Shown here in pieces: positions 29,177 through 60,271 of a DNA stretch of 64,000 bases. Position 1 is the stretch's first letter; every line of letters starts with the position of its first letter. The notes beneath the pieces were generated by a model that saw only the letters and a list, made by a program, of their open reading frames with translations, was not told where the DNA came from and made no database searches. Origin of the DNA: Pseudoflavonifractor sp. An184 (GTDB taxonomy: Bacteria; Bacillota; Clostridia; Oscillospirales; Oscillospiraceae); NCBI RefSeq assembly GCF_002160305.1, contig NZ_NFKI01000009.1, positions 1 to 64,000 of the forward strand, written 5' to 3'. Made by a program: the position numbers and the translations under genes.

Positions 29177-29295
29177 GAGTGTAGAGTTGAGAGTGAAGAG
29201 TGAAGATATGGTGTCCGGCGAAGCCGGACATTTAAAAAATCATTCGCCTCCGGCGAATTCCATATCTCCACTCTCTACTCTTCACTCTCCACTCT
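29177..29295. repeat. Heptamer-armed cruciform-like element
   Basis: Left arm of 7-bp units GAGTGTA, GAGTTGA, GAGTGAA, GAGTGAA, GATATGG (29177-29211). Right arm CATATCT, CCACTCT, CTACTCT, TCACTCT, CCACTCT (29261-29295), largely complementary. Inside are two further hairpins, TGTCCGGC-GAA-GCCGGACA and ATTCGCC-TCC-GGCGAAT. It separates the permease from the SLH gene of module 1 and could weaken or fine-tune downstream expression. Confidence 0.88.
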
Positions 29296-29300
29296 CAAAT

Positions 29301-30557
29301 TTAGTCGTACCGCAGCGCGTCAATGGGATTGAGTTTCGCCGCCTTATTGGCGGGCAGGTATCCGAACAGCACCCCGATGCCCACGGACACCCCGAAGCTG
29401 ACGGCCACCGCCCCGACGGTGGGAGTGGCGGAGAAGGTGGCCCCGCCCCCCATCTGGGAGGTGAGCATGGCCCCCAGGATGGAGCCCACCCCCATGGCCA
29501 GCAGGCAGCCCAGGGCGATGCCCAGCAGCCCGCCGATGGCGGAGGTGGTCCCCGCCTCGATGACGAACTGGCTGCGGATGTCCCGCCGCTTGGCCCCCAG
29601 GGACTTTCGGATGCCGATCTCCCGGGTGCGCTCGGTGACCGACACCAGCATGATGTTCATGATGCCGATGCCGCCCACCAGCAGGGAGATGGCGGCGATG
29701 GCCACCAGCACCCCCATGACCACCCCCATCATGGCGTTGATGAGGTTGGCCTGCTCCTCCATGGTCGTGGTATAGTAGGCGTCCTCGTCCCCCTGGAAGT
29801 GGTCGTAGAGCATGCCGTCGATGATGGCTTTGGCCTGGGCGGCGGTCTCCCCCGAGGTGCTGGTGAACACATAGAGGGTCACATACCGGGCCCCCATAAT
29901 CTGCAGGGCGTTCTCATAGGGGATGTAGATCTGGTCGTCCGAGCCCCCCGCGGCCATTTCGGTTGTCGTATTCAGCCGGTCCAGCACCCCAATGACCGTA
30001 TAGGAAGTGCCGTTGATGGACAGGGTCTGCCCCAGGGCCTGTTCGCCGCCCCCGAAGGCCTCCTGGGCCAGGTAGGCCCCGATGACGCACACGTTCTGCC
30101 GCCGGGCCACGTCTAAGTAGGAGAGGAACCGCCCCTGAGTCAGCTTCTGGCCCCCATCCATGGTGGACTGGGTGTCGCTGTTAAACATAACCTCGCTGAC
30201 GCCGTAGAGCTGGGTCTGGTCAAATTTCTGGTCTCTGTGGCGCAGGGTGGCCTGGAAGGAGACATAGGGGGACACGCCGGTGAGCACATCCGGGTTGGCC
30301 TCCACCAGGTCGTACATATCCGAGGGGTCCAGATCCATGGTGGAGCCGTCTCCCCGGCCCCACACGTAGGTCTGCATCATATTGATGCCCAGCTTATCCA
30401 CCTGCTCGTCGATCATCCCCTGGACCCCGTTGCCCAGGGCCAGGATGACGATGACCGAGGCCACGCCGATGATGATGCCCAGCATGGTGAGCAGGGAGCG
30501 CATCTTGCTGGTGGTCAGGGCCTTGAGGGCCAGACGGAAGGACTGTCCCGCGTTCAT
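29301..30557 (-). CDS. MacB/FtsX-type ABC transporter permease, module 1
   Basis: 418 aa. Helix near 20-40 (LLTMLGIIIGVASVIVILA), an outer MacB-PCD-type domain (about 45-285) and three C-terminal helices with the family signature GIGIMNIMLVSVTERTREIG (about residue 310) and the ending NPIDALRYD. Such permeases do not form a channel; they transmit ATP-driven motion to extracellular domains (mechanotransmission), typically driving a MacA-like adaptor. Start overlaps the ATPase stop by 4 bases. Closely related to the permease at 55491. Confidence 0.95.
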   Translation of the reverse strand: MNAGQSFRLALKALTTSKMRSLLTMLGIIIGVASVIVILALGNGVQGMIDEQVDKLGINMMQTYVWGRGDGSTMDLDPSDMYDLVEANPDVLTGVSPYVSFQATLRHRDQKFDQTQLYGVSEVMFNSDTQSTMDGGQKLTQGRFLSYLDVARRQNVCVIGAYLAQEAFGGGEQALGQTLSINGTSYTVIGVLDRLNTTTEMAAGGSDDQIYIPYENALQIMGARYVTLYVFTSTSGETAAQAKAIIDGMLYDHFQGDEDAYYTTTMEEQANLINAMMGVVMGVLVAIAAISLLVGGIGIMNIMLVSVTERTREIGIRKSLGAKRRDIRSQFVIEAGTTSAIGGLLGIALGCLLAMGVGSILGAMLTSQMGGGATFSATPTVGAVAVSFGVSVGIGVLFGYLPANKAAKLNPIDALRYD

Positions 30558-31312
30558 GCGCCCACCTCCTGTTCCTGCGTCTCATCCGCTTCTCCGGCCT
30601 CGCCGGGCTGGACCACCGCCCGGGGGTCGCGGGCGTCCCCGTCGTAGATGATTTTCCCGTCCTGGAGGCGGATGATCCGGTCGGCCTTCACCGCGATAGA
30701 GTTGTCGTGGGTGATGAGGACCACTGTGTCCCCCTCCCGGTTGAGCTTCTTCAAAAATCCCAGCACCTCCCGGCCGGTGCGGGAGTCCAGGGCCCCGGTG
30801 GGCTCGTCGGCCAGGATCACCGAGGGGTTCCCCGCCAGGGCCCGGGCGATGGACACCCGCTGCTGCTGGCCGCCGGAGAGCTGGGAGGGCAGGTTCTTCT
30901 GCTTGCTCTCCAGCCCCACCCGGCCCAGGGCCCGGACCGCCCGCTCTTTCCGCTCCGCCGCGGGCACCCCGGCGTACAGCAGGGGGAGCTCCACGTTCTC
31001 CAGCACGGTGAGCTTGGGGATCAGGTTGTACTGCTGGAAGATGAACCCCAGCATTTTGTTGCGGATCTCCGCCTGCTGGTCGTCGTCCATGGTGGACACA
31101 TCTACGCCCCCCAGGTGGTAGGTGCCCGAGGTGGGCACGTCCAGACAGCCGATGATGTTCATGGCGGTGGACTTGCCGGAGCCGGAGGAGCCCACAATGG
31201 CCACGAACTCCCCCTGGTCGATGGTGAGGCTCACCCCGTCCAGGGCGTGGACCGCCTCGTCCCCCATGGGGTAGATCTTATACACGTTCCGTAATTCAAT
31301 CAGATGGGCCAT
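30554..31312 (-). CDS. MacB/LolD-type ABC transporter ATP-binding protein, module 1
   Basis: 252 aa from the ATG at 31312 (GAGGG directly ahead). Walker A GSSGSGKST (about 41-49), Q-loop FIFQQYNLIP, signature LSGGQQQRV, Walker B VILADEPTGALDS, H-loop LITHD. The insert between Walker A and signature and the EPTGALDS motif place it in the LolD/MacB subfamily. The C-terminal 25 residues are an acidic tail (GEAGEADETQEQEVGA) missing from its paralogue at 54799. Confidence 0.96.
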   Translation of the reverse strand: MAHLIELRNVYKIYPMGDEAVHALDGVSLTIDQGEFVAIVGSSGSGKSTAMNIIGCLDVPTSGTYHLGGVDVSTMDDDQQAEIRNKMLGFIFQQYNLIPKLTVLENVELPLLYAGVPAAERKERAVRALGRVGLESKQKNLPSQLSGGQQQRVSIARALAGNPSVILADEPTGALDSRTGREVLGFLKKLNREGDTVVLITHDNSIAVKADRIIRLQDGKIIYDGDARDPRAVVQPGEAGEADETQEQEVGA

Positions 31313-31316
31313 ACCC

Positions 31317-32960
31317 TCACCCCGCTGTTGTGACCGCGGCGGAGCCGGCGGTGGCCATGCCGCTCTGGGACTGGATGGGCAGGAGGACGGTCTCCCCCTC
31401 CTCCAGGCCGGAGGTGATCTCCACAAAATCCTGGCTGCCCCGGCCCAGGGTCACCGGGCGGCTCTCGATTTTGGAGGGGTCGGCGATGGTCACGCCGTCC
31501 TCGGCAAAGGCCCCCTCCCCGGCCACCAGGACGGTGCCGTCGCTGTTCACCGCTTCGGCGGGCACACACAGGGCGTTCTCCGAGCGCTCCACGATGATGT
31601 CGGCGGACACATTCATGCCCGGGTTCAGGTCCCCGTACTCCGACAGGAGGATGGTCACCGGGTAGGTGGTAAAGCCGTCGGTGGTGGTGCCGTTGACGCT
31701 CACCTTCTCCACCACGCCGGTAAAGGTCTGGCCGGGCAGGGCCTCGGCGGTGATCTCCACCGTCTGTCCCGGCTGGATCTGGCCGATGTCCAGCTCGCTC
31801 ACGTCCATCTGCAGCTCCAGCTGGCTCAGGTCGTAGATGACCGCCATGGCCCCCGAATCGCCCCCGTTGAGCTGGTCCCCGGCCTTCAGGTTCTTCTCAA
31901 TGACGGTGCCCGAGATGGGGGAGGTGATGGTGTAGCTGTCCAGGGCCTCCTGGGCGCTCTGGAGGGAGAGCTGGGCGTTCTGGACGGCCAGGGCGGCGTC
32001 GGCCAGGGAATTCTCCGCGGACTCGCCCCCGATGGCGGCCAGCACCGCCCCGGCGGACACCCGGCTGCCCACGGACACGTTCAGGTCGGTGATCTCCCCG
32101 CTGGCGGCGGCGGTGATGGTCTGCCGCAGCCGGGGGGAGAGGGTGCCGCCGGAGGCGCAGGCGTATGTACCCACCCGGGCGGTGGCGCTGGTTGTTTCGG
32201 TGAGGGCCCCGGGATTGGCGAGGCGGATCTTCACCTGCCGCACCAGAGCGCCCCCGTTCCCCACCTGGTCGGCGGGGGCCACCGACTCCACCGTGCCGGT
32301 CAGGGTCTCCAGGGTGCCGGACAGGGTGACCTGGGCCGTCTGGCCCGCCGAGATGTGGGCGGCGTCACCGGCCTGGAAGGGCACCGTGAGGGTCATGGTG
32401 GAGGTGTCGGTGATGTCGGCAACGGCCGTCCCGGCGGAGACCAGGTCCCCCTCCTGGACATGGAGGGTCTGGACCACCCCGCCGCCGATGGCCTTCACCT
32501 GGAGGCTGCTGGCCAGGGTGTCGTAGTTCATCTGGGCCTGCTGCACCGACAGCTGGGCCTGCTGGAGGGCGGTCTGGGCGCTGCCCGGGTCGATGCGGTA
32601 GAGGAGCTGGTCCTGCTCCACCTGGTCCCCGTCCTCAAAGGGGGACTCCAGGATCTCCCCGGTGACCAGGGCGGACACCTGGTAGGACTCGATGGGGGTG
32701 ACCGTGCCCGAGCCGGACACAGACACCGTCAGGTCCTGGCGCTGGACCTGGGCGGTCTGATAGGCCCCCACGGCGGGTGCCCCGCCGCTGAGCATGGGCC
32801 GGACCACGATCCAGAACAGCAGGACCAGAACGGCCGCAATCACAAGGACGCGCTTGATCCATTTGCGCCGCTTCTTGGGACCCGTCCACAGGGGGGCGGG
32901 CTCCGTCTCCGGGCCCGCCGGGGTGAGATTGCTCTCCGGGACAGTTTGTGTGGTTTCCAT
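31317..32960 (-). CDS. HlyD/MacA-like membrane-fusion adaptor, module 1
   Basis: 547 aa. Basic cytoplasmic head, one membrane helix (about 36-54, VLVIAAVLVLLFWIVV), then lipoyl half-motifs (GSGTVTPIESYQV... and SPISGTVIEKNLKAGD), short coiled-coil stretches rich in Ala/Gln (about 120-150 and 330-355), and beta-barrel/membrane-proximal domains. MacA-like adaptors couple a MacB permease to the exit route. In a monoderm there is no TolC, so the outer partner is unknown; the co-encoded SLH protein is a candidate. Paralogue at 53092. Confidence 0.93.
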   Translation of the reverse strand: METTQTVPESNLTPAGPETEPAPLWTGPKKRRKWIKRVLVIAAVLVLLFWIVVRPMLSGGAPAVGAYQTAQVQRQDLTVSVSGSGTVTPIESYQVSALVTGEILESPFEDGDQVEQDQLLYRIDPGSAQTALQQAQLSVQQAQMNYDTLASSLQVKAIGGGVVQTLHVQEGDLVSAGTAVADITDTSTMTLTVPFQAGDAAHISAGQTAQVTLSGTLETLTGTVESVAPADQVGNGGALVRQVKIRLANPGALTETTSATARVGTYACASGGTLSPRLRQTITAAASGEITDLNVSVGSRVSAGAVLAAIGGESAENSLADAALAVQNAQLSLQSAQEALDSYTITSPISGTVIEKNLKAGDQLNGGDSGAMAVIYDLSQLELQMDVSELDIGQIQPGQTVEITAEALPGQTFTGVVEKVSVNGTTTDGFTTYPVTILLSEYGDLNPGMNVSADIIVERSENALCVPAEAVNSDGTVLVAGEGAFAEDGVTIADPSKIESRPVTLGRGSQDFVEITSGLEEGETVLLPIQSQSGMATAGSAAVTTAG

Positions 32961-52795: not shown

Positions 52796-52797
52796 CT

Positions 52798-52830
52798 TCC
52801 GGCGGTCCTCACGGACCGCCGGAGTTTTTT
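52798..52830 (+). terminator. Intrinsic terminator of glyA
   Basis: TCCGGCGGTCC-TCAC-GGACCGCCGGA then TTTTTT. Confidence 0.93.
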
Positions 52831-53091: not shown

Positions 53092-54783
53092 ATGCCAGAA
53101 GTGACTGTTCCCCAGTCCGCTCCAGCCGCGTCTCCGGCCTCTCCGCCGGGCCGGCCCAAGCCGAAGTTCAACAAGCGCAAGGTGCGCCAGGCGGCCATTG
53201 CCGGCGCGGTTGTGGTGGCTTTGGCGGCGGGCGGCTTTCTGCTCTATCGCTTTCTGACCAAACAGGACAGCGCCAGCAGCGAGATCCAGACCCAGCCCGT
53301 CCAGTACGGCACCATCCAGAGCAAGGTTACCGGCAGCGGCAACGCCAAGGCCAAGGAATCCGCCGCCATCACCCTCACCGCCGGCGGCACGGTGCAGGAG
53401 GTCTTTGTCTCCCCCGGCGACACGGTCACCGCGGGACAGCCCCTGTACACCATCTTCAGCCAGGAGGCCCAGGACCAGGTGACCCAGGCCCAGACCCAGG
53501 TGGACAACCTGAACAAGGAGATGTCCGCCCTGCTGGAGGACGCCAACAACCTCACCGTCCGGGCCCCCTTCGCCGGCAAGCTCATCAACGTGAAGGAGTT
53601 CCAGCCCGACCAGGAGGTGGCCAAGGAGACCGCGGTGGCCACCCTGGTCAACGACAAGAAGCTGAAGCTCTCCCTGTATTTCAGCTACGCCTATGAAAAT
53701 CAGATCCACACCGGCCAGTCCGTCCAGGTGTCCATCCCCACCGTCATGGGCACCTACACCGGCACCGTAGAGAAAATCAACAAGGTCCGCTTCATCTCCC
53801 CCGAGGGGGCGGTACACTTCGAGGCGGTCCTCGTCTTTGACAACCCGGGCACCCTCACCGCCGGGATGGACGCCTCGGCCACCCTCGCCGCCTCGGACGG
53901 CTCCGCCATCTACCCCTATGAGAACGGCAAGACGGAGTACTACGAGACCCGGGAGATCGTCACCAAGGCCGCCGGGCCGGTGGTGTCCCAGGGCAACCTG
54001 ATGGACTACGCCGACGTGTCCGCCGGGGAGGCCCTGCTCACCCTGGGCTCCAGCACCATCAACGAGACTATCATGTCCAAACAGAAGGAGATCGACGAGG
54101 CCCAAAAGAAGCTGGCCGACGCCCAGAAGGGCCTGGCCGACTTCAATGCCGTCTCCCCCATCGACGGCTCGGTCACCTCCTGTACCCTCACCCCCGGCGC
54201 AGAGGTGAAGAGCGGCGACACCGTGGTCACCATCTCCAACACCACCAACATGGTGGTGGACATCACCGTGGACGACCGGAACATCGCCTTTGTCCAGCCC
54301 GGCCTGACGGTGGAGCTGAGCGACTGGAACGGCAACACCTTCATCGGCACGGTCACCGCCATCAACATGGGGGCCGCTGAGAGCCAGAACGGCATGACCA
54401 ACTACCCCGTCACCCTGACGGTGGACAACCAGGACGGCTCTCTGCTGGCGGGCATGTATCTGGACTACTCCTTTGTGGCCAGCCAGTCGGACGACTGTAT
54501 GATGGTCCCCATGCAGAGCGTGAAGAACATCCCCGGCGAGGACGGCAGCACAGACAGCGTGGTCTTTATCCGGGCGGACAAGCGCCCCGAGAACGCGGTG
54601 GATCTGGAGATCCCGGAGCCGGAGCCCGGCCAGCCCCCCATGTACCCCTCTCCCGAGGACGGCTTCTATCCCGTGAAGGTGGAGACCGGCCTGAACGACG
54701 ACTACAACGTGGAGATCAAGAGCGGCCTCAACGGGGACGAGGAGGTCTTTGTCAACTACCTGGTCGAATCGGCCTATGGATGA
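53092..54783 (+). CDS. HlyD/MacA-like membrane-fusion adaptor, module 2
   Basis: 563 aa from the ATG at 53092 (AGGAGGA 9 bases ahead). Pro/Lys-rich cytoplasmic head, membrane helix about 34-52, then VTGSGNAKAKESAAITLTAGG and AVSPIDGSVTSCTLTPGAEV (lipoyl halves), coiled coils near 130-155 and 325-350, and beta-domains. Relative to its module 1 paralogue it carries an extra 25-residue Pro/Glu-rich insertion near the C-terminus (LEIPEPEPGQPPMYPSPEDG). First gene of module 2. Confidence 0.93.
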   Translation: MPEVTVPQSAPAASPASPPGRPKPKFNKRKVRQAAIAGAVVVALAAGGFLLYRFLTKQDSASSEIQTQPVQYGTIQSKVTGSGNAKAKESAAITLTAGGTVQEVFVSPGDTVTAGQPLYTIFSQEAQDQVTQAQTQVDNLNKEMSALLEDANNLTVRAPFAGKLINVKEFQPDQEVAKETAVATLVNDKKLKLSLYFSYAYENQIHTGQSVQVSIPTVMGTYTGTVEKINKVRFISPEGAVHFEAVLVFDNPGTLTAGMDASATLAASDGSAIYPYENGKTEYYETREIVTKAAGPVVSQGNLMDYADVSAGEALLTLGSSTINETIMSKQKEIDEAQKKLADAQKGLADFNAVSPIDGSVTSCTLTPGAEVKSGDTVVTISNTTNMVVDITVDDRNIAFVQPGLTVELSDWNGNTFIGTVTAINMGAAESQNGMTNYPVTLTVDNQDGSLLAGMYLDYSFVASQSDDCMMVPMQSVKNIPGEDGSTDSVVFIRADKRPENAVDLEIPEPEPGQPPMYPSPEDGFYPVKVETGLNDDYNVEIKSGLNGDEEVFVNYLVESAYG

Positions 54784-54798
54784 GCGGGGTGAACTGCC

Positions 54799-55494
54799 AT
54801 GCTCATTGACGTGAAAGACCTCTATAAAATCTACAACGAGGGGAAGGAGAGCGAGGTCCGGGCCCTGGACGGGGTCACCCTGTCCATTGACCGCGGAGAG
54901 TTCGTGGCCATCATCGGGGCCTCCGGCTCGGGCAAATCCACCCTCATGAACATCCTGGGCTGCCTGGACATCCCCACCTACGGGGATTACATCCTCAACG
55001 GCACCCACATCAACGACCGCTCCGACCGGCAGCTGGCCCACATCCGCAACAAGGAGATTGGCTTTATCTTCCAGGGCTACAACCTGATTCCCGCCCTCAC
55101 CGCTTACGAAAACGTGGAGCTGCCCCTCATCTATCAGGGGGTGTCCATCTTCCAGCGGGAGGAGCGGGTGATGGAGGCCCTGAAGAAGGTGGGCATGGAC
55201 TCCCGCTGGAAGCACAAGCCCGCCGAGATGTCCGGCGGCCAGCAGCAGCGGGTGGCCATCGCCCGGGCCATCGCCACCCATCCCCCCATCATCATGGCCG
55301 ACGAGCCCACCGGAGCCCTGGACTCCAAGACGGGCCGGCATGTGCTGGAGATCCTCCACACCCTGAACCAGGAGGGCTCCACCATCATTCTCATCACCCA
55401 CGACAACGGCATCGCCGCCACCGCCCACCGGGTGGTCCGCATCTCCGACGGACGCATCGTGGCCGACGGCACCCGAGAGGAGGTGGGTCTATGA
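54799..55494 (+). CDS. MacB/LolD-type ABC transporter ATP-binding protein, module 2
   Basis: 231 aa. Walker A GASGSGKST, Q-loop FIFQGYNLIP, signature MSGGQQQRVAI, Walker B IIMADEPTGALDS, H-loop LITHD. Same subfamily as the protein at 30554 but without its acidic C-terminal tail. Stop and next start overlap by 4 bases. Confidence 0.96.
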   Translation: MLIDVKDLYKIYNEGKESEVRALDGVTLSIDRGEFVAIIGASGSGKSTLMNILGCLDIPTYGDYILNGTHINDRSDRQLAHIRNKEIGFIFQGYNLIPALTAYENVELPLIYQGVSIFQREERVMEALKKVGMDSRWKHKPAEMSGGQQQRVAIARAIATHPPIIMADEPTGALDSKTGRHVLEILHTLNQEGSTIILITHDNGIAATAHRVVRISDGRIVADGTREEVGL

Positions 55495-56738
55495 AGCTGG
55501 GCCAGGCATTCAAAATGGCCGCCAAGTCCATCTTTTCCAACATCGGGCGCTCCGCCCTCACCATGCTGGGCATCATCATCGGCCTGGCGGCGGTGATCAT
55601 CCTGGTGTCCTACGCCCAGGGGCAGAACGCCGCCATGCGGGCCTACTACGAGAGCATGGGCACCAATACGGTCGAGGTCTACGCCTATACCTGGGATTCC
55701 TCCCTGGATGTATCCAAGTCCCTGTACAACTACTGTCTGGGCCTGGACAATCTGGTGATGGGGTTCACCCCCAGCGGGCAGGTATACACCGACGCCAAGA
55801 TCTCCTACGGCTCCAAGACCCTGCCCACCGACGACTACCAGACCGCCACCACCCTCTATCTGGGCAACGACCAGTACGGCCTGTGCAACGACTATCAGAT
55901 TGCCCGGGGACGGGAGCTGTCCTTCCTGGACATGGAAAAGCTCAATCAGGTGTGCGTGCTGGGCTCCGCTACGGCGGAGGAGCTGTTCTCCTTCGCCGAC
56001 CCCCTGGACAAGACCATCACCATCAACGGCATCCCCTTCCGGGTGGTGGGCGTCTATGAGAGCAAGTCCAAGGGGGTGAAGGTCGGGACCAAGGAGGAGG
56101 ACCAGTACCTGCTGGACGAGATCAAGCGCAAGGACCGGATGATCCTCATCCCCTATACCATGACCCGCTACTTCAACAGCAACCAACCCATCGACCAGTT
56201 TGTGGTCAAGGTGAAAAACTCGGACGCCATCGCCCCCACGGTCACCAGCCTGAACGGCTTTCTCTCCGGACTCATCGGCGAGCAGAACGGCAGCTACGGC
56301 GTCACCTCCCCCCAGACGTACCAGAAGGAGCAGAACCAGGCCGACGCCATGCAGCAGCGGTTTTTGGGAGGAATCGCCGCCATCTCCCTGCTGGTGGGCG
56401 GTATCGGCATCATGAACATCATGCTGGTCACCGTCACCGAGCGCACCCGGGAGATCGGCATCCGCAAGGCCATCGGCGCCGAGCGGAGGAGCATTATTGT
56501 CCAATTTTTGATTGAAGCAGCCATGATCTGCGGCATCGGCGGACTGTTCGGCATTGTCGTAGGCTATATCGGGACTCTGATCGTGGGCAAGCTGTCCTTC
56601 AATATGATCCTGATTCCCAGCCCCGGGGTGACCCTGGGGGCGGCCGCCATCTCGGTGGCGCTGGGCATTATCTTCGGCATGTACCCCGCCATCAAGGCCT
56701 CCGGCCTCCAGCCGGTGGTGGCCCTGCGGGCAGATTAA
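55491..56738 (+). CDS. MacB/FtsX-type ABC transporter permease, module 2
   Basis: 415 aa. N-terminal helix SALTMLGIIIGLAAVIILVS, outer domain about 45-280 unlike that of the module 1 permease (tyrosine-rich, KSKGVKVGTKEEDQYLLDEI insert), and three C-terminal helices with GGIGIMNIMLVTVTERTREI and the ending QPVVALRAD. The transmembrane core matches the paralogue while the outer domains have diverged, as expected if the modules handle different substrates. Confidence 0.95.
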   Translation: MKLGQAFKMAAKSIFSNIGRSALTMLGIIIGLAAVIILVSYAQGQNAAMRAYYESMGTNTVEVYAYTWDSSLDVSKSLYNYCLGLDNLVMGFTPSGQVYTDAKISYGSKTLPTDDYQTATTLYLGNDQYGLCNDYQIARGRELSFLDMEKLNQVCVLGSATAEELFSFADPLDKTITINGIPFRVVGVYESKSKGVKVGTKEEDQYLLDEIKRKDRMILIPYTMTRYFNSNQPIDQFVVKVKNSDAIAPTVTSLNGFLSGLIGEQNGSYGVTSPQTYQKEQNQADAMQQRFLGGIAAISLLVGGIGIMNIMLVTVTERTREIGIRKAIGAERRSIIVQFLIEAAMICGIGGLFGIVVGYIGTLIVGKLSFNMILIPSPGVTLGAAAISVALGIIFGMYPAIKASGLQPVVALRAD

Positions 56739-56760
56739 CGCTGTAAGGGAGAACATATCT

Positions 56761-59136
56761 ATGAGAAAACAACATCGAATGATCCACGCCCTGCTGGCGG
56801 CCGCCCTGGCCGCCGGGCTGGTGATCCCCCTCCCGGCGGGAGCGGCCGGTGCCTCCTCCTTTCAGGATGTGAGCGACCCCGCCACGGCGGTGAACGCCGA
56901 TATCCTGCGCCTGATGGGAGTGGTCTCCGGCGCGGGGGGCAACACCTTCCGCCCCAATGACAAGCTGACCCGGGCTCAGTTCTGCACCATGGCGGTGAAC
57001 TTCATGGGGCTGGGAGACCAGGTGGTCCTCCACTCCACCCGCACCATTTTCACCGACGTGCCCTCCAGCCACTGGGCCAGGGGATACATCAACCTGGCCG
57101 CCTCCACCATAGTGGACCCGGGCTCCGGGTCCGGCTCGGGGGGCTCCTCTTCCGGCGAGGGGACCACCCCCTCCCCCGGCACCCCTCTGATCGCCGGGGT
57201 GGGCGACGGCCGGTTCCTGCCGGAGCAGGAACTCTCTTTCGCCCAGGCGGTTACCATCCTCATCCGGGTACTGGGGTACTCCGGAGACAAGGTGGGCGCG
57301 GTGTGGCCGGACGGCTACCTGAACCTGGCAGAGTCCATCGGACTCACAAACGGGATCAGCGCCAAGGCGGGGGATTCCCTCACCCGGGCTCAAGCCGCCC
57401 AGCTGTTTGTCAACGCCCTCTCCTGCAAAACCGGGGACGGGAAAGATTATTACACCACCCTGGGCAGCGAGTCCAAGCAGGACACCGTCCTGCTGGCGGT
57501 GAACACCGAGACCGACGACGGCTCCGCCATGGGGGCGGTGCGCACTTCAGAGGGCACCTATCTCCCCGACGCGGAGAACGTGGCTCCCACCGCTCTGGTG
57601 GGCCGCCGGGGCGTGCTGGTTCTCAACGACCAGAGTGAGATCGTCACCTTCGTCCCCGACGACAGCACTTCGGTGACCATCTCCCTGCTGGACAGCGCGG
57701 AACCCAGCTATCTCACCGCCGTGGGCGGCGAGCGCTATACCATCGCCGCCGACACCCCCATCTACACCTCCAGCTCCAGCGATGGGAAATCCTACTCAGA
57801 GGGATACGGCTCCCTCACCGCCGGCAGCCGTCTGACCCTGTTCACCCTGCGGGGCAAGGTGACCGCCATCTATGCGGCCACAGCGGCCACAGCGGCGGAC
57901 GCGGACGCGGTGGTGGTCATGGACCGGGTGAGTTCCGCCGACTTCCACCGGCTCACCGGCGGCGCGACCGGCTACACCATTTTGAAGAATCAGCAGACCA
58001 TCAGCCTGTCTCAGATTCAGCCTTACGACGTGATCACCTACGACAGCATGTCCAACACCCTGCTGGTGTCCGACCTGCGTCTCACCTGTAAATATCAGAA
58101 CCCCTCTCCCAGCCCCAAGGCGCCCACGTCCATCACGCTGCTGGGCCACACCTTCCCGGTGCTGGAAAGTGCCTGGAACTTTACCGATCAGGTGTCGGCG
58201 GGCGAGCAGGTGTCCCTGCTCATGACGGTGGACGGCCAGGTGGCCGCCATCCTCCCCGCCACCAACGAGACTCGCTCCACCGCGCTGGGGTTCGTCACTG
58301 GCGAAACCACGGCGGAGCTGTTCCTGCCCAACGGCGGCGTCCTGGAGCTGACGGGCTCGGCCAGCAAGCTGAAGAATCTGAATCAGGTGTGCTTCCTCTC
58401 CTCCAGCGATGAAAATACGCTGACCGCCTCCCGCCTCACCGCCCAGAGAGCCCCGGGCGACTTCGATCCCAGCGCCATGACGGTGGGCGGATACAAGGTG
58501 GCCCCCGGCGTGCGGGTGTATGAACAGTTCCGGGAGGGCGCTCAGGTGGCGGTCCCCCTGTCCAGCCTGGACTACGGCCTCATCGCCCAGGACCAGATCT
58601 CCGCCGCCCACCGCAACAGTTCCGACATCGTGGACGTCATCGTCCTCAACAACGTCACCGGCGACGCCTATACCTACGGCTGGATGTCGGGCCATACCAC
58701 CGTCACCGAGGAGCCCATTTATGACGACGAGGGCAACCAGACCGGTACCGAGAAAAATTATAGGACCTCCTGGTCCCTGGAAAACCGGAACGTGCTCAAG
58801 TTCAATGAGCGCTCCGGCTACGGCGGAAAGAACGGCCAGTTCATCGGCGCGGTGGCCGGTAAGAACAACATGATTATCAGCACCGTTCAGCTCAATGAAT
58901 TCCAGCAGGTCTCCCCCTCCGACTTCTTCGAGCGTGAGGGCCGCTACTATATCACCCTCAAGGGCCGCACCTACGCCGTGGCCGACAGCGTGGAGTGCTA
59001 TAAGACGGCTACCGAGAGCTGGTTCAGCCAGGAAACCGGCATGGACCGCCTGCGGGCCTGCCTGGCCTTCTCCAGCAAGCTGACGGTCTACATCGACCCC
59101 ATCGGCGACAAGGTCCGCATCGTTACCGCAAATTGA
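56761..59136 (+). CDS. SLH-domain secreted protein, module 2
   Basis: 791 aa. Signal peptide 1-27 (ending PLPAGAAGA). Three SLH repeats, about 30-85, 90-190 (interrupted by a Gly/Ser linker GSGSGSGGSSSGEGTTPSPG) and 195-240: FRPNDKLTRAQFCTMAV, TDVPSSHWARGYINLAAS, FLPEQELSFAQAVTILI and DSLTRAQAAQLFVNAL. The remaining 550 residues are beta-rich and end DKVRIVTAN, like the RIRVIVAR end of its module 1 counterpart. It lies 22 bp after the permease, so it is clearly co-transcribed with the exporter. Confidence 0.92.
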   Translation: MRKQHRMIHALLAAALAAGLVIPLPAGAAGASSFQDVSDPATAVNADILRLMGVVSGAGGNTFRPNDKLTRAQFCTMAVNFMGLGDQVVLHSTRTIFTDVPSSHWARGYINLAASTIVDPGSGSGSGGSSSGEGTTPSPGTPLIAGVGDGRFLPEQELSFAQAVTILIRVLGYSGDKVGAVWPDGYLNLAESIGLTNGISAKAGDSLTRAQAAQLFVNALSCKTGDGKDYYTTLGSESKQDTVLLAVNTETDDGSAMGAVRTSEGTYLPDAENVAPTALVGRRGVLVLNDQSEIVTFVPDDSTSVTISLLDSAEPSYLTAVGGERYTIAADTPIYTSSSSDGKSYSEGYGSLTAGSRLTLFTLRGKVTAIYAATAATAADADAVVVMDRVSSADFHRLTGGATGYTILKNQQTISLSQIQPYDVITYDSMSNTLLVSDLRLTCKYQNPSPSPKAPTSITLLGHTFPVLESAWNFTDQVSAGEQVSLLMTVDGQVAAILPATNETRSTALGFVTGETTAELFLPNGGVLELTGSASKLKNLNQVCFLSSSDENTLTASRLTAQRAPGDFDPSAMTVGGYKVAPGVRVYEQFREGAQVAVPLSSLDYGLIAQDQISAAHRNSSDIVDVIVLNNVTGDAYTYGWMSGHTTVTEEPIYDDEGNQTGTEKNYRTSWSLENRNVLKFNERSGYGGKNGQFIGAVAGKNNMIISTVQLNEFQQVSPSDFFEREGRYYITLKGRTYAVADSVECYKTATESWFSQETGMDRLRACLAFSSKLTVYIDPIGDKVRIVTAN

Positions 59137-59231: not shown

Positions 59232-59261
59232 AGGGCGCGGCTCCGGCCGCGCCCTCTTTTT
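59232..59261 (+). terminator. Intrinsic terminator downstream of module 2
   Basis: AGGGCGCGGC-TCCG-GCCGCGCCCT then CTTTTT. Confidence 0.92.
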
Positions 59262-59369: not shown

Positions 59370-59705
59370 ATGGACCTAGATAAGATTCCCGCCTGGATTT
59401 TGGATCTAGAGCCGGAGGACGCCGGGTTTTTAAAGAATTTTGTTCTCAAATCCGGTTCCCTCAAGGAAATCGCCAAGCTGTACTCCGTGTCCTATCCAAC
59501 CGTCCGGCTGCGGCTGGACAAGCTCATCCAGAAGATCGAGCTCAGCGACCAGAAGGAGGAGGAACCCTTCTCCGCCTTCATCAAGGGGCTGGCCGTGGAC
59601 GCCCGCATCGACCTGGAGACCGCCAAGCTGATTCTGGACCGGTACCAGCAAGAGGAGCACCGCAGACCCAGTAATATCACACCATTAAAGCAAGATCGGA
59701 GGTAA
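59370..59705 (+). CDS. DUF2089 family DNA-binding protein
   Basis: 111 aa, AAAGGAG 8 bases ahead. Strong DUF2089 match: PAWILDLEPEDAGFLKNFVLKSGSLKEIAKLYSVSYPTVRLRLDKLIQKI, a helix-turn-helix of sigma-factor region-4 type (SLKEIAKLYSVSYPTVRLRL). The second half is helical and ends in a basic tail. Presumed regulator of its own operon with the two small membrane proteins that follow. Confidence 0.92.
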   Translation: MDLDKIPAWILDLEPEDAGFLKNFVLKSGSLKEIAKLYSVSYPTVRLRLDKLIQKIELSDQKEEEPFSAFIKGLAVDARIDLETAKLILDRYQQEEHRRPSNITPLKQDRR

Positions 59706-59710
59706 ATGGC

Positions 59711-59986
59711 ATGAATCCCGCTCTCACCCTTGTCATCGCGTTTCTCGTCCTCGCATTCCACATCTGGGCCAGCCGCCGGAGCCCCCGGTTCTGGTTTCTG
59801 GGAGGCATTGTCCCTCTGGTCTGGTTCGGCCTTCTGGCCTTTCTCTGGTCCCGCGGTCAGATCTCCCTGCCCGCAGACTGGAAGATATTGGTGTTTCCTA
59901 CGCTGATTCTTCTCCTGCTTTGGCTCAAGGGAAATCTGGCGGCCAAGAAAAGGGAACTGGAGCAGATGAAAGCAAAAGATCTGTGA
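59711..59986 (+). CDS. Small three-helix membrane protein with QMKAKDL tail (1)
   Basis: 91 aa, GGAGG ahead. Hydrophobic segments about 3-20, 28-46 and 58-73, then a basic-acidic cytoplasmic tail AKKRELEQMKAKDL. No named family recognised. Its last seven residues are identical to those of the next protein. Confidence 0.82.
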   Translation: MNPALTLVIAFLVLAFHIWASRRSPRFWFLGGIVPLVWFGLLAFLWSRGQISLPADWKILVFPTLILLLLWLKGNLAAKKRELEQMKAKDL

Positions 59987-59998
59987 GGAGGTTTTGCT

Positions 59999-60271
59999 AT
60001 GAAGGAAATCATTGTCTTATCGCTCACCTTTGCCATCCTGGCCGTCCAGTATCACCTGGGACTGATGCGCAAACCGGGGTTTGGCGCAGTACTGCCCGCC
60101 GCCCTGGCCGCCCTGTTTTTGGCTGTCAGCTTCTTGGAGCAGACAACGGAGTACGGGATCACCGGGCTTCTGTGCGTGCTGGCCGTGGCTGCGGCCTGGG
60201 GAGCGGGCCGGCTGAAGGCTGGTAAGCACGAAAAGGCGCAACTGGACCAAATGAAAGCCAAAGACCTATGA
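59999..60271 (+). CDS. Small three-helix membrane protein with QMKAKDL tail (2)
   Basis: 90 aa, GAGGAGG ahead, 12 bp after the previous gene. Hydrophobic segments about 4-20, 30-46 and 54-70, then KHEKAQLDQMKAKDL. Same size and layout as the preceding protein, with the membrane part diverged. Together they look like subunits of one small membrane complex or tandem duplicates under DUF2089 control. Confidence 0.82.
   Translation: MKEIIVLSLTFAILAVQYHLGLMRKPGFGAVLPAALAALFLAVSFLEQTTEYGITGLLCVLAVAAAWGAGRLKAGKHEKAQLDQMKAKDL

Follow-up and report, generated by a model that had tools for sequence, protein, structure and literature searches.

Two MacAB-like transporter modules of Pseudoflavonifractor and a wall-anchored SLH protein as their candidate outer partner

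Two four-gene modules and their assignment

The stretch of DNA analysed here (the window) comprises 64,000 nucleotides of Pseudoflavonifractor sp. An184 (positions 1 to 64,000 of contig NZ_NFKI01000009.1, assembly GCF_002160305.1) and carries two modules that each encode a membrane-fusion adaptor, an ATPase, a permease and a secreted SLH-domain protein (Table 1). The present account concerns the relation of this SLH protein to the transporter encoded beside it. An earlier note on the window had described the two modules as paralogous sets with the same gene order, which was borne out by the coordinates of the open reading frames, by the Pfam and NCBIfam matches, and by identities of 61% between the ATPases (over 223 amino acids), 32% between the permeases and 27% between the adaptors. 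As also stated in that note, the SLH gene of module 2 starts 22 bp after the permease gene; upstream of it, 15 bp separate adaptor and ATPase, and the ATPase and permease genes overlap by 4 bp. Given this tight spacing, and the coding-strand hairpins resembling terminators that precede the adaptor gene and follow the SLH gene, the four genes of module 2 are likely to form a single operon; the same consensus scan gave a weaker plus-strand match within the permease gene, at 56651. The corresponding gap between permease and SLH gene in module 1 is 142 bp, and a weak terminator-like hairpin lies within it on the minus strand (29242-29258), where it could set the ratio of the two. A permease 98% identical to that of module 2 occurs in Pseudoflavonifractor capillosus An827.

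Table 1. Coordinates of the two modules and of the hairpins bracketing module 2 within the window.
Feature	Position	Strand	Basis
Module 2 adaptor (membrane-fusion protein), 563 aa	53092..54783	+	Pfam HlyD_3/HlyD_D23, NCBIfam RND_mfp
Module 2 ATPase (MacB/LolD type), 231 aa	54799..55494	+	ABC_tran; top NCBIfam match a MacB model, below its cut-off
Module 2 permease, 415 aa	55491..56738	+	MacB_PCD and FtsX; tree
Module 2 SLH protein, 791 aa	56761..59136	+	Pfam SLH above cut-off
Module 1 adaptor, 547 aa, tandem units	31317..32960	-	HlyD/RND_mfp family models
Module 1 ATPase	about 30554..31312	-	start 31312 taken from the frame; a longer in-frame open reading frame lies further upstream
Module 1 permease, 418 aa	29301..30557	-	MacB_PCD and FtsX
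Module 1 SLH protein, 620 aa	27296..29158	-	Pfam SLH; tail homologous to the module 2 tail
Terminator-like hairpin 5' of module 2 adaptor	52797..52824	+	consensus scan only
Terminator-like hairpin 3' of module 2 SLH gene	59232..59255	+	consensus scan only

Both permeases scored above the Pfam cut-offs for MacB_PCD and FtsX, both ATPases matched ABC_tran with a MacB model ranked first, and both adaptors exceeded the TIGR01730 (RND_mfp) cut-off of 94.9 bits with values of 148.3 and 178.1. With a MacB_PCD/FtsX permease, a MacB-type ATPase and an adjacent MacA/RND_mfp adaptor, the modules can thus be classed, by predicted family membership, as MacAB-like (type VII ABC) transporters. Narrower models were not reached. 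The MacB equivalog NF007826, which describes a fused ATPase-permease, requires 966 bits and gave 172-299 with the separate subunits; FtsX_Gpos, the Gram-positive FtsX model, gave 28.7 bits with module 2 and 22.8 with module 1 against a cut-off of 225, FtsX_actino was far below its cut-off of 250 (22.1 and 29.7), and the LolCE model TIGR02212 gave 32.6 and 77.2 against 362. FtsEX and LolCDE belong to the same permease superfamily, but the modules therefore score below the cut-offs of both families. FtsEX is not known to have an adaptor. Like MacAB-TolC of E. coli, the modules combine a MacB-type permease and ATPase with a MacA-type adaptor; unlike it, they have separate ATPase and permease genes, a tandem adaptor with mostly short inserts and an SLH protein instead of TolC. 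Among the module proteins no match to an OEP/TolC outer-membrane factor was found with Pfam, so that this component of a tripartite efflux pump was not found in the module.

The SLH protein of module 2 begins with a signal peptide (assigned by eye), followed by three SLH repeats (about 30-225), a variable middle (226-400) and a conserved C-terminal tail (401-791). Repeats and regions were read from alignments A1, A2 and A4, of which A2 combines 45 of 67 complete SLH proteins, chosen for clean starts, with the window protein. In a PDB search the SLH part matched solved S-layer proteins, and the tail, about 390 residues long and with invariant positions in the alignments, found no relative (best E 0.083). 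It contains no Pfam domain, and hence no Pfam hydrolase domain; its weak internal repeats (best probability 86) were not used. Three SLH proteins carrying this tail were found in the genome of An184: those of modules 1 and 2, and a third encoded where contig C100 begins, without a visible transporter nearby. The csaB gene serves to anchor SLH proteins to a pyruvylated wall polymer. Because CsaB is present in this genome (292.8 bits, cut-off 213.1), anchoring of this kind is plausible, and the SLH repeats together with csaB mark the product as a predicted wall-anchored SLH protein.

Comparison of the two modules further showed the transmembrane segments of the permeases to be 45% and 53% identical and their outer domains 22%, in agreement with the earlier claim of conserved transmembrane cores beside divergent outer domains. 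That the SLH tails also differ held in part: they have diverged, but rather than being simply different they are homologues within one family (25% over 258 amino acids, E 2e-12). The existence of two modules suggests two putative substrates.

Linkage of the SLH gene to the transporter

The genome of An184 holds about 36 SLH genes (78 domain matches, grouped by hand), or roughly one gene in 100 if genes average 1 kb, together with three MacB_PCD genes, two strong and one weak; both strong ones lie in the window, and each has an SLH gene next to it. The earlier note had proposed that the frequency with which SLH genes adjoin such transporters be compared with chance. This was done in three samples that overlap in part, some contigs being present in two, and SLH genes were scored by phmmer or by home-made profiles built from window and locus sequences rather than by Pfam for each row. 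The first sample consisted of 61 genomes of the same family, which gave 57 permease matches in 37 genomes; judged by coordinates, 40 of the 57 loci had a tail match downstream. A tree of 56 permeases was built from 54 of the 55 matches outside the An184 genome (the short fragment G046:C54 was omitted) and the two window permeases. An SLH gene accompanied all 20 members of the module 2 clade and 21 of the 23 in the module 1 clade, counting L088, whose placement in the tree was unresolved; module-type permeases thus had an SLH gene in 41 of 43 cases, versus none of the 13 others (11 of them assessable, as the contigs of L105 and L113 end 139 and 256 bp past the permease).

The second sample was collected with the permease sequence alone and comprised the best 79 of 145 relatives, mostly from Oscillospiraceae and 46 to 99% identical. 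An SLH gene was located directly downstream (<500 bp) in 77 of these 79, and in the remaining two the contig breaks off 319 bp (L164) or 2 bp (L181) past the permease. In the third sample, a profile of the SLH tail matched 95 of 391 genomes of the class Clostridia (E 1e-15 or better, up to four candidates scored per genome), representing 23 families by our own count. From these, 51 tail loci were chosen non-randomly to cover 22 families, and L373 was added on the basis of its adaptor. A MacB-type permease adjoined 48 of the 51 tail-selected loci, 44 had the full set of adaptor, ATPase and permease, and the linkage was observed in 21 of the 22 families inspected; the three loci lacking such a neighbour are L331, L340 and L374, the last of which lies close to a contig end. 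The SLH gene precedes the transporter genes in L332, L333 and L370 (the last with a short tail match), which gives two gene orders overall; the linkage has therefore outlived rearrangement. As a control, genes flanking module 2 were common to few of the 79 loci (6, 1, 1 and 5), and where 1 kb or more of flank was available, a DUF2089-like gene followed the SLH gene in 6 of 62 and glyA was found in 4 of 55. The SLH gene is thus linked to such transporters well above chance, unlike the flanking genes, and is a near-obligatory companion of module-type permeases.

Several loci depart from this arrangement. Tail genes without a neighbouring transporter were observed at L117:109-2001 (on contig C100 of An184, starting near the contig end) and at L118:5786-8116, and L340:5230-8829 encodes an SLH protein of 1199 amino acids with more than one tail match and no recognised transporter within the stretch. 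At L359:5069-10519 and L378:374-5941 the adaptor gene is followed directly by the permease and SLH genes, with no ATPase match in between. A Peptidase_M23 gene (L093:4792-5823) occupies the SLH slot of one transporter of the module 1 clade, after a gap of about 225 bp. In the window itself, module 2 is followed at 59370-60271 by a DUF2089-like gene and by genes for two small membrane proteins; they are seldom found with the module elsewhere, and their membership in it was rejected (6, 1 and 1 of the 79 loci).

The tandem adaptor, its covariation with the tail and an RND locus

The module 2 adaptor comprises an N-terminal cytosolic tail and one transmembrane helix (both by eye), two lipoyl plus beta-barrel units at about 66-275 and 278-490, and a membrane-proximal part; the inserts between its lipoyl halves are 34 and 33 residues long. 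A profile-profile alignment matched one half of the protein to the other (probability 99.4, E 1.7e-21), which identifies the adaptor as a tandem duplication of the lipoyl and barrel unit, and the closest solved adaptor is MacA (5nik, E 4.7e-22). Two barrels were present in all 38 module adaptors longer than 300 amino acids in the family set. Adaptors of the class-wide SLH-last loci were likewise two-unit by eye, that of L355 being split over two open reading frames, as was that of the SLH-first locus L370. Alignment A3 comprises the adaptor of the window together with 43 of 64 others, chosen for clean starts. Insert lengths, counted from alignments, ranged from 26 to 62 amino acids for the 44 module 2 adaptors, with medians of 34 and 33. 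The range was 31 to 88 in 20 further adaptors (19 of module 1, two of those without an SLH gene, plus that of locus L119 described below), and 85 to 283, with a median of 108, in 12 RND adaptors adjoining a TolC-like gene. SLH-free modules mostly had single units with long inserts. Following the SLH-free MacB modules at L097:7628-10495 and L102:3756-6899, a second adaptor-like protein with HlyD domains (955 or 1047 amino acids) was also noticed.

Covariation between the subunits was examined with 47 dereplicated module 2 sequences (from 55 complete loci and the window), from which the distances of ATPase and transmembrane core had been removed as background; low covariation with the permease core is built in, as the core belongs to that background. 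The partial correlation of tail distance was 0.54 with adaptor unit 1, 0.55 with unit 2 and 0.47 with the permease outer domain, and lower with the membrane-proximal part of the adaptor (0.25) and its cytosolic tail (0.17). The variable middle of the SLH protein gave 0.13 and 0.09 with the two adaptor units, and the permease outer domain gave 0.50 with unit 2. In equal windows of 70 residues, the tail signal peaked in the lipoyl/hairpin parts of the adaptor (71-140 and 281-420) and was low at 1-70 and 421-560. These values suggest that divergence of the tail tracks the lipoyl/hairpin parts of the adaptor.

The earlier note had contrasted the modules with diderm systems that rely on an outer-membrane TolC. 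This stands for the modules, which have no OEP protein, but not for the genome as a whole: contig C93 of An184 carries, in one operon (L116:2572-8250), genes for an OEP-family protein of 439 amino acids (secreted, by eye), an RND pump and a long-insert adaptor, and the OEP matches of the genome lie there. TolC-like proteins of monoderm Firmicutes have, moreover, been published (PMC8809574). Among 22 RND loci of the family (L116, L119, L151-L161 and L257-L265, some of them fragmentary), a TolC-like gene directly preceded the adaptor gene in 12, namely that on C93 and 11 others; the four such proteins tested with Pfam were all OEP. At a single locus, L119 of genome G044, a module-tail SLH protein occupies the TolC-like slot next to an RND pump and an adaptor with tandem units and short inserts, and this arrangement was not found at any other of the 22 loci. 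Five of the six closest relatives of its pump (36-39% identity) are accompanied by a TolC-like protein; in the sixth, L257, none was seen. In L119, which represents a single genome, adaptor and partner seem to have been replaced together. A search with its adaptor through 400 genomes of the family, with up to three candidates scored per genome, gave 40 matches besides itself, all with 31% identity or less; the five that were inspected (L373, L081, L098, L107 and L110) are all ABC modules.

A proposed wall-anchored outer partner and its rivals

The best-supported reading of the observed gene content, near-obligatory linkage, separate tail family, tandem adaptor and covariation is that the SLH protein acts as a wall-anchored outer partner of the transporter. 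That it is a functional subunit of the same machine is considered very probable. Somewhat better than even is the proposal of a monoderm clostridial MacAB-type machine with four subunits, encoded by this locus, in which the SLH tail docks on the adaptor as a fixed subunit, and direct docking of tail on adaptor is favoured to the same slight degree. An exit or outer-partner role in export falls just short of an even chance. A broader proposal is more tentative again, namely that this SLH family is the wall-based counterpart of the outer-membrane factor, taking the place of TolC on a tandem adaptor, movable from an ABC (MacB) to an RND motor, and forming pumps that reach from the cytoplasmic membrane to the S-layer. 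The wall-spanning export or wall-remodelling machine inferred in the earlier note is plausible and supported in part; the putative outer-partner role that it gives to the SLH protein receives indirect backing from the adaptor covariation and from L119.

In the proposed mechanism, the ATPase and the MacB/FtsX permease would form the motor in the membrane, and the tandem adaptor a ring or tube above it, in which three adaptor chains may yield a pseudo-hexamer. The SLH protein, secreted by the Sec pathway, would be held on the wall polymer by its three SLH repeats, while its tail would bind the adaptor at the lipoyl/hairpin face that points away from the membrane, which in diderms is the docking site of TolC; alternatively, it may form the exit of the adaptor rather than hold its distal face. 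ATP turnover would drive the permease outer domain, the adaptor would guide substrate away from the membrane, and the substrate would pass from the membrane or inner-wall zone to beyond the wall and S-layer. The motor and adaptor steps are put forward because they are the same as in MacAB and Spr0693-0695 (PMC5768738, PMC5985334), and the SLH step because of the linkage, the covariation and the L119 locus.

A number of observations weigh against this reading. The covariation is suggestive only, because its permutations ignore phylogeny, and species kinship was corrected solely through the ATPase and transmembrane-core background; correlations with the adaptor units are seen for the SLH repeats as well (0.31 and 0.30), and the permease outer domain correlates at just 0.30 with unit 1. 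Short inserts as a mark exclusive to SLH modules were weakened, as the ranges touch (26-88 and 85-283); short inserts also occur in the SLH-less L093 and L095, and some class-wide inserts look longer by eye (L362, L372). Exclusivity of tandem adaptors had to be dropped, since the SLH-free L097 and L102 also have two units; the SLH-first loci L332 and L333, moreover, have a single-unit adaptor. L093 and L095 are themselves module-type loci that have tandem adaptors yet no SLH gene, and tail genes without an adjacent transporter are known from L117, L118, L331 and L340, with L374 lying near a contig end. A close match to the SLH protein of L119 (E 1e-40 or better) was absent from 15 other genomes of its genus. 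Lastly, L085 (1845-7981) combines a module-1-type transporter with a module-2-type tail, and the pairing of transporter and tail is therefore not strictly type-specific; the locus presents a natural exchange of the fourth gene.

As an alternative to export, the transporter might serve wall remodelling as an FtsEX-like mechanotransmitter that moves or activates the SLH protein as a wall-side effector or scaffold, with no export duct. FtsX does belong to the permease family, the work done by MacB takes place outside the membrane (PMC5985334), and the sole module with another secreted protein in the SLH slot, L093, has an M23 peptidase there. This proposal is nevertheless unlikely: that locus is a single one with a gap of about 225 bp, the FtsX models were far from their cut-offs, a pump-type adaptor gene is part of the set, the SLH tail lacks a Pfam hydrolase domain, and in L119 the SLH protein stands beside an RND pump. 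Less likely still is that the SLH protein is a client, secreted by Sec and then released, folded or inserted into the wall by a LolCDE-like transporter. Although MacB-type machines handle substrates already outside the membrane (PMC5985334), each module has one dedicated SLH gene, and the tail of a client would likewise be expected to covary with the adaptor and the permease outer domain, about 34 other SLH genes of the genome have no strong MacB_PCD gene with them, tail genes occur with no adjacent transporter (L117, L118, L331, L340), the LolCE model stayed below its cut-off, and the neighbour in L119 is an RND pump. An ordinary detoxification pump of the YknXYZ/Spr0693 type, with the SLH protein merely co-regulated and making no contact, is the least probable of the three, for SLH-free pumps of this kind do exist in monoderms (the 13 other permeases; PMC5768738) but the linkage held across 21 families and two gene orders while flanking genes scatter, and the covariation is specific to the tail.

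The preferred reading, that of a wall-anchored outer partner, extends what has been described for single-membrane bacteria. Spr0693-0694-0695 of Streptococcus pneumoniae (PMC5768738) and YknWXYZ of Bacillus (PMC5985334) resemble the modules as monoderm MacAB-like pumps with an adaptor; unlike them, they have no SLH partner described in the accessible parts of these papers, YknW being a membrane protein, and the term SLH is absent from the accessible text of PMC5985334. The Spr0693 hexamer has been proposed to cross the inner-wall space (PMC5768738). TolC-like proteins of S-layered monoderm Firmicutes have been placed in the S-layer (PMC8809574), and the surface proteome of Desulfotomaculum reducens was reported to contain HlyD- and OEP-family proteins (PMC4137172). 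The former share with the modules an outer partner lodged in the S-layer and an operon with adaptor and pump, but they belong to the OEP family, whereas the protein described here is SLH-anchored, has a tail of an unnamed family and accompanies a MacB-type ABC motor. No description of an SLH protein with a MacAB-like transporter was found in the accessible literature, in which subscription journals were thinly covered (including PMC5768738, PMC5985334, PMC8809574, PMC4082486, PMC4137172, PMC8277102 and PMC13125312). An outer partner in a monoderm S-layer is thus already published in the TolC-like form, and an SLH partner of a MacAB-like system may be new, though a literature negative is no proof of absence.

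The role of adaptors in monoderms has been posed as a question (PMC5985334), as these adaptors have no obvious outer partner; a conserved wall-anchored fourth subunit, if true, would supply one. S-layers would thereby be connected with transport, and a widespread family of SLH proteins whose tail has no Pfam domain would acquire a function. Single-membrane bacteria may thus own a wall-based version of the three-part pump.

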